32,852 nt of DNA from positions 1 to 32,852 of the forward strand of contig JALGUR010000026.1 in assembly GCA_029820565.1 (NCBI GenBank), given 5' to 3'. The translations under genes were made by a program, and so were the position numbers. This stretch comes from Candidatus Zipacnadia bacterium. Lineage in GTDB: Bacteria; Armatimonadota; Zipacnadia; Zipacnadales; Zipacnadaceae. Under the pieces are notes generated by a model. That model saw nothing but the letters and a program-made list of their open reading frames with translations, ran no database searches and had not been told where the DNA came from. Of this stretch, positions 8,373 to 29,824 are shown one piece after another. The number at the start of each line of letters is the position of its first letter. The first letter of the stretch is position 1.

Positions 8373-10325
8373 ATGGCTAACACAACTTCGGGCCAAATTA
8401 ACCCCGGCCGAGGAGTTAGTTGGCGGGCCATAATTCTGGCCCTCATCCTCATTCCCTTCAACGCCTTATGGGTCCAGAGCATGGAATTGCTCTGGGACAC
8501 CGGCTGGCCTGACGCCGTCTCCTTGTTGTTCAATACAATCTTTATACTGCTATTTCTGGCCTTGGGCAACCTGGTATTGCGTCGCTGGTTGCCCCAGTGG
8601 GCCCTGGAGCCTGGGGAGTTGGTCGTGGTCTATGTGATGCTGTGCCTGAGTACTGTCATATGCGGCCACGACTTCCTGCAGGTTCTGGTGATTATGCTCA
8701 TTAGCCCCAGTTATTATGCCACCCCGGAGAATCAGTGGGAAGATTTATTCTTACGCCGACTGCCTCCTTCCCTGATAGTTAATGACCAGGGGGCGGCTAA
8801 TAGTTTTTGGGAAGGCGGGGCCTATCTGTATTCCTGGTCAGCCTTGCGTCCCTGGGTAGTGCCCGCCGCTATGTGGATAGGTTTTACAATAGTGCTGCTG
8901 GGCGTGATGATGTGCATCAACATTGTAGTATGGCGGCGTTGGAATGACCAGGAGAGGCTTACCTATCCGCTGCTCCAACTTCCCCTGCACTTGACCAAGC
9001 CCGGCTTTCAGTTGTTGGGCCGTGACCTGCTGGGTAATAAGTTGTTGTGGATAGGATTTGTCGCCACGGGCGCTATTGACCTGCTTAACGGCCTTGCCCA
9101 TTTATATCCTCGTCTCCCCTCCCTGCACGTTACCCACACAGTTGTGACACCAACCACCTATCCTTGGCTAGCTATGGGCTGGACGGCCGTTGCTATTTAT
9201 CCGTTTGCTATCGGCCTGGGGTATATGATGCCCCAGGACTTTTTGTTCTCTTGCTGGTTCTTTTACTGGTTGTGGAAGGCCGAAATGATTGTCGGTTATC
9301 TCATTGGTGCGGTTCAAGCGACCGCCTTCCCCTACGTGGACGAACAGACTTTCGGGGCCTACGCGGGCATTGGCATTTTCGCCTTATGGACGGGCCGTCA
9401 CTATTTTGGCCGCGTTATCGGCGATTTGCTACGGGGTAGTTCGTCGTCACATGACCGGCCCCAGGCTCTTCTGCATCAAATTGGCTTTGGCGGTATGATC
9501 GTGGGTTTATTTATTCTGATTATCTTTGCCACTAACGTGATGGGCATCGGCCTTCCGGCGGCATTGCTCTTCTTAGGCGGCTATCTGCTCATTGCTTTCT
9601 CGATAACCCGGATGCGAGCGGAGTTTGGCCTACCTGTTCATGATTTCTGGACCAGCCCGCTGCAGATTGCTGTCAACATTGCCGGCGGTAGAGCCTTTGG
9701 CGCCCGTAACTTGACGGCACTTAGCCCGTTGCTATGGTTGGTCAGATCGCAGCGCAGTCAGCCTATGCCCCATGGCTTGGAGGGCTTGACCCTGGGCGAG
9801 CGGCGCGGGTTGGCTGGATTATCTGTGTTAGGAGCGCTGAGCCTGGCAATAATTGTGGGCACCATCGCCGGCTTCTGGAGTATGCTGCATCTGGGCTATA
9901 GGCACGGCTTTACCCTCAACCCGATGACCGATGCCACTTATCTGGCCACGGGCCACATTTTTCAGCGGGCTGCAGGTTGGCTGACCCTTCCCCCTCCTGT
10001 CCATTTGGAGCGACTGGCCGGCCTACTCGTAGGGGTCCTCTTTAGCATAGGACTACTACTGATGCGCCAGCGGTTTGTCTGGTGGCCCTTTCATCCGGCG
10101 GGCTATGCGGCTTCCAGCATGACATTTATGGGGCTGTTGTGGTTGCCGATGATGGTGGCGTGGGCGGTGAAAGTGTTAGTGCTTCGTTACGGGAGCCACA
10201 AACTGTACCGGCGCCTTCTCCCCTTGTTTTTGGGCCTGATTCTCGGAGAATTTGTGATGGGAGGCGTGTGGGGATTAGTCGGCGTTATTGGTACTTTTGA
10301 CACTTATCGCTTCTGGCCATATTGA
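8373..10325 (+). CDS. polytopic membrane protein, DUF6785/OPT-transporter-like
   Basis: This encodes a 650-residue protein with roughly 12-14 hydrophobic helices spread over its length and no soluble domain. After a short polar N-terminus the first helix is WRAIILALILIPFNALW. Polar loops carry SMELLWDTGWPD and SPSYYATPENQWEDLF. The arrangement matches a family of large integral membrane proteins common in uncultured bacteria (recalled as DUF6785/DUF6784) that resemble oligopeptide transporters. I could not verify this by search. Transport is inference; with a GH3 gene transcribed divergently next door, uptake of glycan or peptide fragments is possible. No Shine-Dalgarno site precedes the ATG. 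Its stop lies only five bases from the stop of the convergent DUF362 gene. Confidence 0.7.
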   Translation: MANTTSGQINPGRGVSWRAIILALILIPFNALWVQSMELLWDTGWPDAVSLLFNTIFILLFLALGNLVLRRWLPQWALEPGELVVVYVMLCLSTVICGHDFLQVLVIMLISPSYYATPENQWEDLFLRRLPPSLIVNDQGAANSFWEGGAYLYSWSALRPWVVPAAMWIGFTIVLLGVMMCINIVVWRRWNDQERLTYPLLQLPLHLTKPGFQLLGRDLLGNKLLWIGFVATGAIDLLNGLAHLYPRLPSLHVTHTVVTPTTYPWLAMGWTAVAIYPFAIGLGYMMPQDFLFSCWFFYWLWKAEMIVGYLIGAVQATAFPYVDEQTFGAYAGIGIFALWTGRHYFGRVIGDLLRGSSSSHDRPQALLHQIGFGGMIVGLFILIIFATNVMGIGLPAALLFLGGYLLIAFSITRMRAEFGLPVHDFWTSPLQIAVNIAGGRAFGARNLTALSPLLWLVRSQRSQPMPHGLEGLTLGERRGLAGLSVLGALSLAIIVGTIAGFWSMLHLGYRHGFTLNPMTDATYLATGHIFQRAAGWLTLPPPVHLERLAGLLVGVLFSIGLLLMRQRFVWWPFHPAGYAASSMTFMGLLWLPMMVAWAVKVLVLRYGSHKLYRRLLPLFLGLILGEFVMGGVWGLVGVIGTFDTYRFWPY

Positions 10326-23842: not shown

Positions 23843-25708
23843 ATGAGTAGCAATCAGCAGTTGGGCACCATCAAATTAGATCCGCCCGGTCCGGTAGTAG
23901 CAGGCCGCCGGGGCACCTGGCGGCTAATGTACACAGTAGGTTCGCGGGGCATATCTGTCGGCGGCGGCGTGCGCATCGCCCCGCCTCATCAGCCTTATAA
24001 CAGCTGGGAAGTGGGCAAGGTCATCGCTACTTGCAGCCGGCCCGGGGCGAATTGTGAAGTGAAGTTGGACAACGTCTGTCCGGCTACCTACCACTGGCGC
24101 CAAGTGGCTATTATCCAGGTGACGGTGTGGGGCGCAAGCCTCCAGGAAGGTGACGAAATCATAGTGACCATAGGCGAGAGAGGTGGGTATGTCAGCGGGT
24201 ATTTTTTGCGGGCGCGAGCCCAGAAGATTGCTATTCCCCACACTCAATTCGACGTGTGGGTGGATGCGGACGGTAATGGTTCGTATCTCCTCGGAGGCCA
24301 AGACTCCGAGGGCTTCGTACGCTTGGAGCAGGTGCCGCGCTTTGACGTCATCGGCGGCCCGGCTGATTATTTCTCAGCAGTAGTCAGGCAACCGGCGCAT
24401 CCCGACGGCCCCTCGCGGATAGTGATTTGTGCTCGTGATGAATATGACAACCGCAGCCGCAGTTATCGCGGTACGCCGACCATCACCCCTAAGGACGCTG
24501 CTGGCACGGCGCTATTTGATGACAGCGCTGAGGGTAGTGTCCAGGTGCGGGTTAATGACCAAATTGCCCCCGGGCAGCGAATCACTGTCTATGATGCCGA
24601 ACAGGAATTGATCGGCACCAGCAATCCGGTATGCCCTGACCTTGCCGCGCCGTACCATATCTACTTTGGTGATTTGCATGTAATGACCGGCCGTGGCCAG
24701 CCCTATGAGAGTTGCGGCAGCGATCACCCTACATCCTACCGCTATGCTCGCGATGTGGCGGGATTAGACTTTGCCGTCGTTACGATGCAACCGGGCAGTG
24801 AAGAGGTCTGGCAGCAAGACTTAGCCGTAGATGCCGAGTTCAATCAGCCCCAGCGATTTGTCACTTTCCCTGCCGTAGAGTTCTATTTTACTACGGGCCA
24901 CAAGAACGTCTACTTCTCTGCCCCTAACCCACCTCTGCTGCGCGCTCAGACTCCAGAGGAGTTATGGCAAGCCATTGGTGATACAGAATGTATGGTAATA
25001 CCGCATCATCCCAATTGTCATTCTGAGTCACGGCCCCGGACCGGCTGGGGCCCCTATGATTTCACTACAATAAATCCGCGCTACGAGCGGCTGATAGAGG
25101 TTTGCCAGAATCGGGGCTTATTTGAGGTTGACGATGTAGGTGGGAATGTGTACCTGGGCGGATATGGCTCCTCGGTACAGGATGCCCTGGCCCAGGGTTA
25201 CCGTCTGGGATTTGTGGGTGGCAGTGATAGTCACGTCGGTCTGGCGGGCGAGAGCCGCAGCGCCCTGGCTGGGCTGGACCCTGAGGAAATAGTAATAGGT
25301 GGGTTTACTGCGGTTCTCGCCCGTGAACTGACCCGAGAGGCGATCTGGGAAGCCCTCCAGGCGCGGCGCTGTTATGCTACTATGGCCGCCCATATATTGC
25401 TATCGGTCAAACTCGACGACCATCTAATGGGCTCGCAACTAACCACTGACCAAATCGGCCCCCAGCGGGCTTTGCAGATAAAGGTGGCCAGCCATCGCCA
25501 GATTGAACAAGTAGAGATAGTGCGCAACAATCAGGTCGTAGCCTGTTTTGCTGGTGAGGGACTGAACTTTGAAGAAGAATGGATAGATGACAAGCCCTTA
25601 GACCAGGTAGAACGATTAGGCGACCCGGGCACTGTGTTCTACTATGTCCGAGTCACCCAGCGCGACCGGCGGATGGCCTGGTCAAGTCCCATCTGGATTG
25701 AAAGGTAA
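23843..25708 (+). CDS. PHP-domain protein, DUF3604-like
   Basis: This encodes a 621-residue protein without a signal peptide. Residues 1-265 are beta-rich, with immunoglobulin-like segments. From about 272 a PHP-type metal-dependent hydrolase domain starts: HIYFGDLHVMTG (D277, H279), then IPHHPN (H388, H389) and GGSDSHVG (D462, H464). This matches DUF3604, whose usual first motif is GDLH.HT; here Met replaces the second His of that motif. The C-terminal 100 residues form another beta domain. PHP domains hydrolyse phosphoesters or related bonds with two or three metal ions; the substrate here is unknown. It is the first gene of an operon: the ECF fusion starts six bases after its stop. Confidence 0.75.
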   Translation: MSSNQQLGTIKLDPPGPVVAGRRGTWRLMYTVGSRGISVGGGVRIAPPHQPYNSWEVGKVIATCSRPGANCEVKLDNVCPATYHWRQVAIIQVTVWGASLQEGDEIIVTIGERGGYVSGYFLRARAQKIAIPHTQFDVWVDADGNGSYLLGGQDSEGFVRLEQVPRFDVIGGPADYFSAVVRQPAHPDGPSRIVICARDEYDNRSRSYRGTPTITPKDAAGTALFDDSAEGSVQVRVNDQIAPGQRITVYDAEQELIGTSNPVCPDLAAPYHIYFGDLHVMTGRGQPYESCGSDHPTSYRYARDVAGLDFAVVTMQPGSEEVWQQDLAVDAEFNQPQRFVTFPAVEFYFTTGHKNVYFSAPNPPLLRAQTPEELWQAIGDTECMVIPHHPNCHSESRPRTGWGPYDFTTINPRYERLIEVCQNRGLFEVDDVGGNVYLGGYGSSVQDALAQGYRLGFVGGSDSHVGLAGESRSALAGLDPEEIVIGGFTAVLARELTREAIWEALQARRCYATMAAHILLSVKLDDHLMGSQLTTDQIGPQRALQIKVASHRQIEQVEIVRNNQVVACFAGEGLNFEEEWIDDKPLDQVERLGDPGTVFYYVRVTQRDRRMAWSSPIWIER

Positions 25709-25714
25709 TAGCCA

Positions 25715-28312
25715 ATGCGTGATGCTATCGCGATGTGGCGCAATACCAAGATGGTAGTCCTGGTGGCACTGTCGGCTGCTCTTTACGCTGCTATTCTCAT
25801 TCCCTTCAAGCCCATTCCTATAATCCCCGGTATCACTGAGATTCGCCCCGCGGCCGCTATCCCTATTGTTACTGGCCTTCTGTTTGGCCCGGCGGCGGCC
25901 TGGGGCTGTGCTATGGGCAATCTGATCGGTGACTTTTTCGGCACCGTCGGCCCGGGCAGTCTCTTTGGTCTGCTGGGTAACTTCCTGTTGGCTTATGTCC
26001 CTTACCGCCTGTGGCATCTGCTCTCGCCGCGCCGGCTCGCGACAGGTGCAGTGGGCCAGTTACCAGTCTTTGCGTTGGTCACCATAGCCGGCAGCGCGGC
26101 GTGTGCGGTGGTGATAGCCTACGGCATTGACCTGTTAGGACTCGCACCCTATGAGATAGTAGCGACCATTATCACTATCAACAACTGCCTGGTGGGCATC
26201 GTCCTGGGGATGCCGCTGCTGGCGCTGCTGTACCCTCGAGCCCGCCGCTGGGGTCTGACTTATCCGCAGATAATGGCTGATGAAGACGTGGGCAATGGAC
26301 TGCTTTCCCCGCTGGCTGGGCTGATGGTGGTGGCCGCAGGCGCCGTGGGAGCTTCGGCGGCTCTGGACAAGGCCGGCGTCTTTGTTCGGGTTGGCGCCGG
26401 CTTGGCGGGACTGGTAACTCGCCACGCCGCCGCCTTCCAGGAGGCCTGGGGCACTACGTTGCTGGTGCCCGAAGAGATGGCTCTGCGGCAGGTGGGTTTG
26501 ATATGCAGTCTGGCGCTGTGTGGGGGAGTGGTGCTGCTGGCTCGCTTGCCGCGGCGCTATCGCCCCGCAGAGGCACCAACTATGACTGAGCCGCGGCCCG
26601 TCCTGGGAGGCGTGGACGTTGAGGGCCTGAGTTTCACCTACCCTGAGCAAGCCACTGCCGCTCTGGACGATATAAACTTCAGCCAACGCCCCGGCGAGTT
26701 ATGCTACCTTATGGGCCGTACGGGCGCCGGCAAGTCCACCCTCTGCCTCTGTCTCAATGGCGTCATACCTCGCCTACAGCAGGGCACCTACCGGGGTCGG
26801 GTTCAAGCGGCAGGTTTGGAGGTGGCGAGTCTTCCGGTGGCCGCTACCGCCCAGCACGTGGGGGTAGTCTTCCAGGACTTTGAAAGTCAACTGTTCTGCA
26901 GTGATGTAGAGCGTGAGATAGCCTTTGGATTAGAGAATCACGGAGTTCCTTCCCGGCAAATGCACCAGGCCGTGGCGCGCTGGCTGAACGTGGCAGGCTT
27001 GTCCGATCTGCGACTTCGCGACCCCACTACTCTCTCCGGTGGGGAGAAGCAGCGGCTGGCACTGGCCGCGGTTATGGCCGCGGAGCCTCAAATAGCAGTG
27101 TTGGATGAGCCGACGACTGACCTGGATCCGCAGGGGGCTGCCGCAGTCACCTCGGCCTTCCAGCGGCTTCACCACCAGGGCCGGACCCTGTTGATCGTGG
27201 ACCACAGTAGCCCGCGGGCCATGGACGCTGATAAATTGCTGGTTCTGGATAGTGGTCGGCTGGCGTATGCCGGGAGGCCCGAAGAAATACTGGCCCAGCC
27301 CGCCCCGGCGGAGCGCTGGGGACTGCAATGCCTCCCCACAGCCCAAATCTGCGCTCAGTTAGGTCTGGAGGCCCGGCCCGTAACGGTTGCCCAGGCTGCT
27401 GACGAGTTGCACGCGGTCGGTGTCAAACTCGACGGGCAAAAGTGGGGTGCCTTACAGCACAAAGAGGCCCAGCGGACCAGTGAATACGGGGAAGTCGTGG
27501 TAGAGGTAGAGGACCTGCACTTCGCCTATGATGGAGTGCCGGCCCTAAACGGGGTTTCCCTCCAAGTGCGGTGCGGTGAGTTTTTAATAATCTTAGGCAG
27601 CAACGGCTCGGGCAAGACCACACTCTGTAAGCATCTCAACGGACTGCTGAAGCCCCGAGCAGGGCAGGTCCTTATTGCTGGTCGGTCCACCGCCCAGCAG
27701 GATACCGCTGAGTTGGCCGCCACGGTTGGCTACCTATTCCAGAATCCTGACCATCAGTTGTTTGCCGATACTGTTTATGCGGAGGTCGCTTTTGGTCCAC
27801 GTAATTTGGGGATTTACGGCGAAGGATTGGAGTACCGGGTACGCCACGCCTTGGAACTGACCGAACTGACCGGCTACGAGCAGGCCGACCCATTTGCGCT
27901 CACCAAGGGTGAGCGGCAGCGGGTTGCCCTGGCCTCGGTGCTGGCTCTGCTGCCACGGGTAATTGTCTTTGACGAACCGACCACCGGCCTGGACATCCCC
28001 CAGCAGCAGGCTATGTTTGACCTGCTGGGCCGCCTGAACAGTGAAGGCCAGACCATCATTATGGTAACTCACCACGCCGAGGGAGCCATTGCCTACGCCC
28101 ACCGCGCCGTTCTTATGGCTGATGGCGAGATTGTCGCCGACGGGCCGGTGCGCGAGATATTCTCGGACGCTAACCTCTGCGCCCAGGCTCATCAGTCTGT
28201 ACCCGCCAGCGTCCAACTCTCCCAACAGGTTTTGGGAGTGACGCTGCTAAGCCCGGCTGAATTCGCCGAATGTGTCAGAGTCACTGAAGAGGGGAGAGGT
28301 GAGGGGCAGTGA
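25715..28312 (+). CDS. fused ECF transporter: S component plus EcfA and EcfA' ATPases in one chain
   Basis: This encodes 865 residues. Residues 1-290 are membranous. The first block (VALSAALYAAILIPFKPI, then IRPAAAIPIVTGLLFGPAAAWG and GNLIGDFFG) is typical of ECF substrate-binding S components, and two more helices follow. The first ABC ATPase has Walker A GRTGAGKST (334-342), signature LSGGEKQR (440-447) and Walker B VLDEPTTDLD (D464, E465). The second has Walker A GSNGSGKTT (628-636), the unusual signature LTKGERQR (729-736) and Walker B VFDEPTTGLD (D753, E754). ECF transporters import vitamins or metals; the substrate cannot be told and I see no riboswitch. The last codons overlap the GTG of ecfT by four bases (GTGA), so the products are coupled into one complex. 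Confidence 0.88.
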   Translation: MRDAIAMWRNTKMVVLVALSAALYAAILIPFKPIPIIPGITEIRPAAAIPIVTGLLFGPAAAWGCAMGNLIGDFFGTVGPGSLFGLLGNFLLAYVPYRLWHLLSPRRLATGAVGQLPVFALVTIAGSAACAVVIAYGIDLLGLAPYEIVATIITINNCLVGIVLGMPLLALLYPRARRWGLTYPQIMADEDVGNGLLSPLAGLMVVAAGAVGASAALDKAGVFVRVGAGLAGLVTRHAAAFQEAWGTTLLVPEEMALRQVGLICSLALCGGVVLLARLPRRYRPAEAPTMTEPRPVLGGVDVEGLSFTYPEQATAALDDINFSQRPGELCYLMGRTGAGKSTLCLCLNGVIPRLQQGTYRGRVQAAGLEVASLPVAATAQHVGVVFQDFESQLFCSDVEREIAFGLENHGVPSRQMHQAVARWLNVAGLSDLRLRDPTTLSGGEKQRLALAAVMAAEPQIAVLDEPTTDLDPQGAAAVTSAFQRLHHQGRTLLIVDHSSPRAMDADKLLVLDSGRLAYAGRPEEILAQPAPAERWGLQCLPTAQICAQLGLEARPVTVAQAADELHAVGVKLDGQKWGALQHKEAQRTSEYGEVVVEVEDLHFAYDGVPALNGVSLQVRCGEFLIILGSNGSGKTTLCKHLNGLLKPRAGQVLIAGRSTAQQDTAELAATVGYLFQNPDHQLFADTVYAEVAFGPRNLGIYGEGLEYRVRHALELTELTGYEQADPFALTKGERQRVALASVLALLPRVIVFDEPTTGLDIPQQQAMFDLLGRLNSEGQTIIMVTHHAEGAIAYAHRAVLMADGEIVADGPVREIFSDANLCAQAHQSVPASVQLSQQVLGVTLLSPAEFAECVRVTEEGRGEGQ

Positions 28313-29112
28313 ACTCCCGCTTCCTGTACTTAGACACTGATAGTCCCCTCCACCGCTTGCACCCGGTGACGAAAATCATCGGCCTGATCCTGCTGTTTGT
28401 GCCGGCAATGGCCTTCAATCACCCTTCAGCACAACTCGCCGTCCTGGCTCTGGCGCTGGTGCTACTGAGCGCCGCTCGGTCAATGGTCAACCTGGGCCGG
28501 ATGTACAAATTCCTGGCGGTGCTGCTGTGTATGTCAACACTGATGTGGGCTTTGTTTCTCCGTGATGTGCCCGAAGATGTGCAGTTGTTGGCATCCCTTG
28601 GACCTGTTGTAATCTCCGATGTGTCCCTGCTATATGGCGTGGCGATGGGCCTGCGTATCACCGCCCTACTCGTATTCGGCCTGGTATTCATCTCCACTAC
28701 CAAGCCCGAGGACTTCACCTACGGCCTGCGGCGGATGGGCGTGCCCGTAACCGCCTCGGTTGCCTTGGCTTTGGCCTTCCGGCTGGTGCCTACGTTTATG
28801 CAGACCGTGCAGACGGTCACTGAGGCCCAGCGGGCCCGCGGACTGAGGCTATATGAGGGCGGGCTGCGGCGGCGGCTGCGGCGCTACGTCCACCTTATCG
28901 TGCCGATTATGGGTTATGCTCTGCGACGAGCCGATGACCTTTCCCGTGCTCTGGAGGCCCGTGGCCTCTCTGCACCGGGCCGCCGGACCGAATATTTCAG
29001 CCCCCGCCTCGCCTGGGCTGATATAGTGGCCCTCGTCGCGATAGTCGTCCTGGCCGCCGCCTGCATCTACCTGCGCCTGAGCGGCTACGGCGAACTGCTG
29101 GCAAGGCTGTAG
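28309..29112 (+). CDS. ecfT: ECF transporter transmembrane subunit EcfT
   Basis: This encodes a 267-residue membrane protein, the energy-coupling subunit that links the two ATPases to the S component. The two coupling-helix motifs of the family are present: ARG at 176-178 (AQRARGLR) and ARG at 217-219 (LEARGLS). About five or six hydrophobic helices include one at the C-terminus (ADIVALVAIVVLAAACIYL). The N-terminal SPLHRLHPVTKI is characteristic. The GTG start overlaps the stop of the S-A-A' fusion. With that gene it makes a complete ECF transporter. Confidence 0.92.
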   Translation: MNSRFLYLDTDSPLHRLHPVTKIIGLILLFVPAMAFNHPSAQLAVLALALVLLSAARSMVNLGRMYKFLAVLLCMSTLMWALFLRDVPEDVQLLASLGPVVISDVSLLYGVAMGLRITALLVFGLVFISTTKPEDFTYGLRRMGVPVTASVALALAFRLVPTFMQTVQTVTEAQRARGLRLYEGGLRRRLRRYVHLIVPIMGYALRRADDLSRALEARGLSAPGRRTEYFSPRLAWADIVALVAIVVLAAACIYLRLSGYGELLARL

Positions 29113-29152: not shown

Positions 29153-29824
29153 GTGGGTATCATTGGGTTGTCTGTATCCCGCCGAGCGCAGTGCCGAAGA
29201 TGGGAGGAAGGAAAGACAACTGGAATGTGTCTATCTTGCGACGCGGAACAACTAGGCAACGCCGAGGCCCCTACACGTCGGGGAGACCAACAGGTGGATG
29301 TTACCTCTGTCCCTGTGTCCCACAAGCTCTCCTCTCCCGCAGGGAGAGTCGCCGACGCGCCAAAGCCGCTATGGCGACGGCGCGGGGCTGGGGGTGAGGC
29401 AGCATTCTCCCTTCCTGCAGGCCGCGAGGCAACCCGTCGAGTCGTCGGCGTAGCCCGCCGGGATAAGGTCGCCTTCGCCCGAGAGCAACGCCGGCAGCCG
29501 ACTCGAGCTGAGAAACGGCTGTGGAACGCACTACGGAATCGCCAACTCGGACAGAAATTCCGTCGCCAGCACCCTATCGGCGATTTTGTCCTCGACTTCT
29601 ACTGTGCCCGAGCCGCATTGGCAATTGAGATTGATGGACCTGCACATGCGCGGCAGTCGCGGTCCGACGAATGGCGTGATGCCCAGCTTAAGCGTATAGG
29701 TATTCGTGTGCTAAGATTGCCCGAAGAGCAGGTCAACAGCAACTTGCCAGGTGTTCTTAAAGCCATAAAGTGTGCCTTGACTGGCCTCACCCCTAACCCC
29801 TCGCCGTTTCGGAGAGAAGAATAA
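29153..29824 (+). CDS. DUF559 (VSR-like endonuclease fold) protein with repeat-derived ends
   Basis: The frame is 223 codons long. The recognisable domain spans only about residues 105-210: FAREQRRQPTRAEKRLW, FRRQHPIGDFVLDFYC (D148) and AIEIDGPAH (E159, D161). These fit the DUF559 family, which shares the fold of very-short-patch-repair endonucleases; the acidic residues would bind metal. The first 95 residues are mostly translated repeat (SSPAGRV..., GAGGEAAFSLPAG) and the last 14 (TGLTPNPSPFRREE) lie in the direct repeat at 29786. No in-frame ATG/GTG/TTG stands near the domain start. The true start is therefore unclear (GTG 29153 or an ATG near 29226 behind a GGAGGAAGGA), or the 5' end has decayed. 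Confidence 0.6.
   Translation: MGIIGLSVSRRAQCRRWEEGKTTGMCLSCDAEQLGNAEAPTRRGDQQVDVTSVPVSHKLSSPAGRVADAPKPLWRRRGAGGEAAFSLPAGREATRRVVGVARRDKVAFAREQRRQPTRAEKRLWNALRNRQLGQKFRRQHPIGDFVLDFYCARAALAIEIDGPAHARQSRSDEWRDAQLKRIGIRVLRLPEEQVNSNLPGVLKAIKCALTGLTPNPSPFRREE
29331..29400 (+). repeat. GGGAGAG/GGGGGTGAGGC repeat with an inserted hairpin
   Basis: CTCTCCC/GGGAGAG (loop GCA), then a 35-base insert at 29349-29383 that is itself a hairpin (TCGCC/GGCGA, CGCCG/CGGCG), then GGGGCTGGGGGTGAGGC. Without the insert it matches the copy at 30081-30116. It overlaps the 5' part of the DUF559 frame. Confidence 0.65.
29786..29814 (+). repeat. 29-bp direct repeat right of the DUF559 domain
   Basis: This is the second member of the pair with 29115-29143, differing at two positions. 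It encodes the last residues of the DUF559 frame. Confidence 0.75.

Follow-up and report, generated by a model that had tools for sequence, protein, structure and literature searches.

A one-chain S-A-A' ECF importer of Zipacnadia and its possible role in 5'-deoxynucleoside uptake

Gene organization of the locus

The window, i.e., the whole stretch of 32,852 nucleotides of contig JALGUR010000026.1 that was analyzed, contains three consecutive genes on the forward strand. The first of these (23843..25708) encodes a DUF3604/PHP-like protein of 621 aa, identified from its ORF and from Pfam and NCBIfam searches. After a gap of six bases (25709..25714) follows the gene for an S-A-A' ECF importer protein of 865 aa in one chain (25715..28312), which was delineated from the ORF, domain models, relatives, and a structural model. 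The third gene (28309..29112) overlaps the second by 4 bases and encodes EcfT, a protein of the CbiQ family with 267 aa. These three co-directional ORFs, with their gap and overlap, lie exactly where a preliminary description of this DNA had placed them. The start codon of the S-A-A' gene is backed by relatives that share the same N-terminus, M(R/K)(D/E)xxxMW. Further downstream, a DUF559 endonuclease-like gene (29153-29824) is located between ecfT and hypE; it is absent from G002, the nearest relative, in which ecfT ends only five bases before the similarity resumes at hypE. Elsewhere in the window (8373-10325), DUF6785/DUF6784 membrane proteins are encoded, and in one family several relatives (L065-L069) have genes for such proteins right next to the importer.

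The 865-aa protein is an ECF importer in one chain

The N-terminal part of the protein (residues 1-178, 25715..26248, forward strand) is a QueT-like S domain that matched the Pfam family QueT (PF06177) with 59 bits in a profile search (cut-off 33.7). A search of PDB sequences with the S profile gave no match, and fold comparison was used for that reason. The AlphaFold (AF2) model of residues 1-289 (pLDDT 83.8, pTM 0.83) retrieved TmRibU first among PDB folds, followed by ThiT, BioY, and PanT, with a probability of 1.0 for the best rows. Thus, the comparison with S components by structure prediction, as proposed in the preliminary description, assigned the domain to the ECF S fold. A linker (26249..26599, forward strand) with two more predicted membrane helices at about residues 199-219 and 257-276 separates the S core from the first ATPase, and a similar C-terminal pair of helices is found in stand-alone S relatives. 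In the model of the whole chain, the A and A' domains were confident and the linker was weak at residues 245-252 and 278-294.

The two ABC domains, A (residues ~300-545, 26612..27349) and A' (residues ~594-840, 27494..28234), are likewise on the forward strand and pass the models for ECF ATPases, with 424.9 bits for TIGR04520 (cut-off 315) and 412 bits for TIGR04521 (cut-off 330). Walker A and Walker B motifs were read in both; the former are GRTGAGKS in A and GSNGSGKT in A'. The signature motif is LSGGE in A and an altered LTKGE in A'. Among 47 related A-A' proteins in which both signatures were read, A' had L[TS]KG in all 47, as opposed to LSGG in A. This difference suggests that one ATP site is degenerate, so that the two sites of the importer are probably unequal. 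The adjoining T subunit matched PF02361 (CbiQ family) with 115 bits. Domain models and S fold therefore agree with the earlier claim that S, A, and A' are joined in one protein of 865 residues, and the ECF nature of this protein together with EcfT is secure.

Although it is a member of PF06177, the S domain differs from the short paralogs of that family (about 150-175 aa), which scored 129-147 bits in five cases and 87 in one. Both types occur in the same Firmicutes genomes, where the long type scored 69-79 bits. Conversely, the short paralogs reached at most 16 bits against a profile of the long subfamily, whose members exceeded 160, and the profile scores did not group the long S type with the short QueT-type proteins. 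The S domain represents a distinct subfamily within PF06177 that is longer and very conserved.

Distribution and architecture of the importer family

Of 60 relatives, 22 have the importer when the S domain is taken as the criterion. It forms one chain in the majority of families in the order and likewise in G041. Families f5 and f10, on the other hand, encode S and A-A' separately, and the genes of f8 are broken by contig ends. The full S-A-A' fusion was found in 18 rows, of which 15 were distinct (14 from Zipacnadia and one from Nitrospirae, L121), while S is kept as a separate gene at 40 other loci. The gene context was derived from mechanical ORF calls, its associations are given uncorrected for the large number of loci examined, and several of the genomes are incomplete. 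At a Methanocalculus locus (L120, 7665-9281), T and S are fused in one chain, which represents another fusion solution.

Within the complex, S is the most conserved domain. Specifically, its identity between the clade and Firmicutes amounts to 54%, as compared to 41% for A, 47% for A', and 31% for T. This is the pattern that a common ligand in Firmicutes and this clade would be expected to produce.

Gene context of relatives and the substrate

Gene neighborhoods in relatives provided the main clues to the substrate. At L092, L094, and L100, three loci from Firmicutes, genes for MtnA, MTA phosphorylase, a Met gamma-lyase-like enzyme, and a GntR regulator surround those of the ECF system. Two of these (L094 and L100) also encode an MTA/5'-deoxyadenosine deaminase-like protein, and the remaining one (L092) a fuculose-phosphate (fuculose/ribulose-1-P) aldolase-like gene. 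MTA phosphorylase adjoins T or S in L087, L090, and L093. An independent instance of this MTA-type context is the actinobacterial operon of Pseudonocardia acaciae (L137), in which the gene order is nucleoside phosphorylase, A-A', MtnA, T, S, and class II aldolase. Phosphorylase, MtnA, and class II aldolase all belong to the DHAP shunt, the pathway for 5'-deoxynucleosides (PMC6079011, PMC12632272). Based on gene context only, we predict that the substrate is a 5'-deoxynucleoside (MTA or 5'-deoxyadenosine) or a 5-deoxypentose derived from it, a call that we consider evenly balanced and that assumes the same substrate across relatives at about 50% identity. The preliminary description had also suggested a search for linked genes or riboswitches in relatives. 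This search produced the MTA-type genes of Firmicutes and Pseudonocardia, but no preQ1 or other riboswitch that could point to a substrate in the window or at any locus searched.

Among the relatives of its own class and in the window itself, no gene of the MTA pathway adjoins the importer. Elsewhere in this genome, MtnA is encoded with a score above cut-off, and a gene of the MTA-phosphorylase type falls slightly short of its own. Nearly every genome of the class has MtnA and MTA phosphorylase, so that their occurrence here cannot tell substrates apart. Five Deltaproteobacteria loci (L110, L115, L116, L123, and L124) have a YciI-like gene and CaiB-type CoA transferases downstream of the importer, and the substrate may be different there. 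The literature searched contained nothing relevant on an ECF importer of MTA or methylthioribose, or on MtsT.

The genes that follow the importer in its own class raise the alternative that it carries a pentose or another sugar. Five loci (L076, L078, L079, L080, and L179) have S, A-A', T, DUF4432, and a GHMP kinase, four others (L070, L072, L077, and L177) have DUF4432 alone after EcfT, and two (L065 and L066) have a GHMP kinase in divergent orientation. We take DUF4432 to be mutarotase-like and the GHMP kinase to be of the anomeric sugar kinase type; a mutarotase and a 1-kinase as followers would fit a 5-deoxypentose substrate. However, the GHMP kinase scored below the cut-off of every specific curated family, neither gene lies beside the importer in the window, and the same S subfamily goes with nucleoside genes elsewhere, so that transport of a pentose or another sugar is rather unlikely. 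For 5-deoxyribose or methylthioribose as the sugar, this alternative would overlap the prediction made above. The five-gene operon that ends in the GHMP kinase is conserved in related genomes, and in L078-L080 a 16S rRNA gene was observed near it.

Taken at face value, the Pfam name would place the importer in the QueT family as a transporter of queuosine precursors (preQ1/queuine). Matches to PF06177, at 59-64 bits, do exceed the cut-off both in the window and in the 22 relatives, and a tRNA-guanine transglycosylase (Tgt) is encoded in the genome. However, scores of the subfamily are weak (about 60-70 bits versus the 129-147 of most short QueT-type paralogs), the neighboring genes are of the MTA/DHAP-shunt type rather than queuosine genes, and QueC is present in the genome above cut-off, which would fit a probable synthesis of preQ0 de novo. 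The missing preQ1 riboswitch also counts against this function, although this is a weak point as the short paralogs have none beside them either. Queuosine transport is thus very unlikely, and the scores of the short paralogs, the riboswitch result, and QueC led us to reject it as the first-choice substrate.

The DUF3604/PHP-like neighbor

The protein encoded upstream of the importer matched DUF3604 with 40 bits, above the cut-off and aligned over 37 residues only, and the NCBIfam model for CehA/McbA (NF038032) with 56.9 bits, under the cut-off of 80. Its earlier label as PHP-type is fair. Yet its metal motif does not follow the pattern, since motif I (residues 277-281, 24671-24685) reads DLHVM instead of the usual HxH. 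DLHVM or HVM was invariant in this protein and in 17 of 17 orthologs, whereas paralogs mostly have HxH. The protein thus belongs to a coherent subfamily with an altered metal site, in which Met stands for the second histidine of motif I. No solved relatives were found with the single sequence, and profile matches to RecA fusion constructs and a cadherin were discarded as low-score and implausible.

The tight spacing had suggested that this protein acts on the imported compound. According to such a scenario, enzyme and importer would be a functional pair at the level of the genus, with the hydrolase releasing or processing what is imported. The six-base spacing and common direction suggest co-transcription, and a remnant of the PHP gene in G001, of the same genus, indicates that the arrangement may predate this genome. 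This remnant is a 93-aa ORF (L061, 1408-1689) that corresponds to the first 24 and last 74 residues of the PHP protein with a large internal deletion. The site of the importer between ftsK and hypE is occupied in G001 by an Eco57I-type restriction-methylation gene (L061, 1788-5585).

Synteny argues against a pair. G002, another member of the genus, has no PHP gene at its importer (L081, JALGTV010000054), which also lies between FtsK and HypE but is preceded by another gene. Aligned with G002, the window is similar at the DNA level through ftsK up to 23728 and, after a gap, again from 25708, the junction at which the importer starts. The upstream gene of G002 (L064, 3306-4121) encodes a protein of 271 aa that reads as isochorismatase-like and has no Pfam or NCBIfam match. 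Outside the genus no linkage was detected, even though many genomes have both genes. No DUF3604 gene was found upstream of the S gene in about 18 relatives with readable upstream DNA, nor at any of the importer loci when these were queried with the PHP protein by tblastn. Both genes were present in eleven genomes (G007 with only part of the importer) and always on different contigs, including genomes in which these contigs are large (C4 of 375 kb and C55 of 173 kb in G038; C70 of 280 kb and C73 of 88 kb in G041). Orthologs of the PHP protein (40-69% identity) were detected in about 15 genomes and had no S or T in the flanks examined, in which generic ABC genes at about 30% identity appeared in two genomes only. 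Instead, these orthologs adjoin sulfatases and other unrelated genes.

The spot between ftsK and hypE is therefore variable, and the PHP/DUF3604 gene is a lineage-specific neighbor there. DUF3604 genes are so numerous (at least 8 in this genome and more than 20 in some relatives) that a junction with the importer by chance is plausible. Since the PHP gene is unlinked to ECF genes in every relative examined, the very outcome that the preliminary description had named as a refutation, the proposal that its product acts on the imported compound found no support, a functional pair is highly improbable and was rejected on synteny, and the gene is probably a neighbor that takes no part in import.

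Proposed function and significance

In ECF transporters, the ligand meets S on the outside, S topples when docking to T, and ATP hydrolysis by A and A' resets it. With moderate confidence, we favor as the best overall explanation a dedicated importer made of the S-A-A' protein and EcfT, which takes up a SAM-derived 5'-modified nucleoside or 5-deoxypentose and for which the PHP gene is dispensable. In this presumably ATP-driven importer, S, A, and A' are permanently joined. The ligand of the S domain would be 5'-methylthioadenosine or 5'-deoxyadenosine, both of them 5'-modified nucleosides that S-adenosylmethionine chemistry releases, or the derived 5-deoxypentose. Toppling of S on docking to T would free the compound inside, and ATP hydrolysis would reset S. 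Nucleoside phosphorylase and MtnA, encoded elsewhere in the genome, could then pass the compound into salvage. The PHP/DUF3604 gene would not be needed for import. By analogy with other ECF systems, the fusion should keep S from leaving the complex or from being swapped, which would make the importer a dedicated one.

A broader joint reading across taxa is more tentative. It would combine an unnamed QueT-like S subfamily that imports 5'-deoxynucleosides or pentoses in Firmicutes, Actinobacteria, Deltaproteobacteria, archaea, and Armatimonadota; a one-chain S-A-A' form in one class of Armatimonadota, in which S is unable to leave the motor; and a new 5-deoxypentose 1-kinase route through DUF4432 and GHMP kinase in some relatives. 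If the substrate call is right, this subfamily would provide a transporter for 5'-deoxynucleoside salvage, a pathway in which uptake is only vaguely characterized, and the "QueT" annotation that misleads in many genomes would be corrected. In addition, the covalent S-A-A' chain offers a natural test of whether S must detach from the ATPase motor during the transport cycle. A conserved, mislabeled S subfamily with a testable substrate is a more interesting outcome than the pairing with PHP.

Comparison with known systems

Fused A-A' pairs have already been described in ECF systems (PMC6828968). Full S-A-A' chains were not encountered in the literature searched. The mycobacterial protein Rv2326c is, we presume, a possible case of such a chain. 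Like group I (dedicated) ECF transporters, the system described here has an S fold, two ABC domains, a CbiQ-type T, and adjacent genes, but differs in that S is covalently tied to A-A' via two extra membrane helices. QueT and QrtT, the accepted ECF S components for queuosine precursors (PMC11130926), share with our subfamily the Pfam membership above cut-off and the order of motifs. However, they have about 160 aa as compared to about 250-290 aa in the S proteins studied here, and the latter are set apart by distinct motifs, a weaker score, no preQ1 riboswitch, and another gene context.

CehA/McbA-type DUF3604 metallohydrolases resemble the upstream protein in the DUF3604 match and in conserved DxH and G-S/T-D-S/N-H motifs, whereas the latter has Met in place of the second metal histidine and scores under the NCBIfam cut-off. 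Finally, the DHAP shunt (mtnK or phosphorylase, mtnA, and ald2) resembles the loci of importer relatives, in which genes for phosphorylase, MtnA, and class II aldolase accompany the ECF genes. In the window, no shunt gene is adjacent to the importer. The papers on this pathway describe sugar transporters or a permease together with it, and no ECF system (PMC6079011, PMC12632272).
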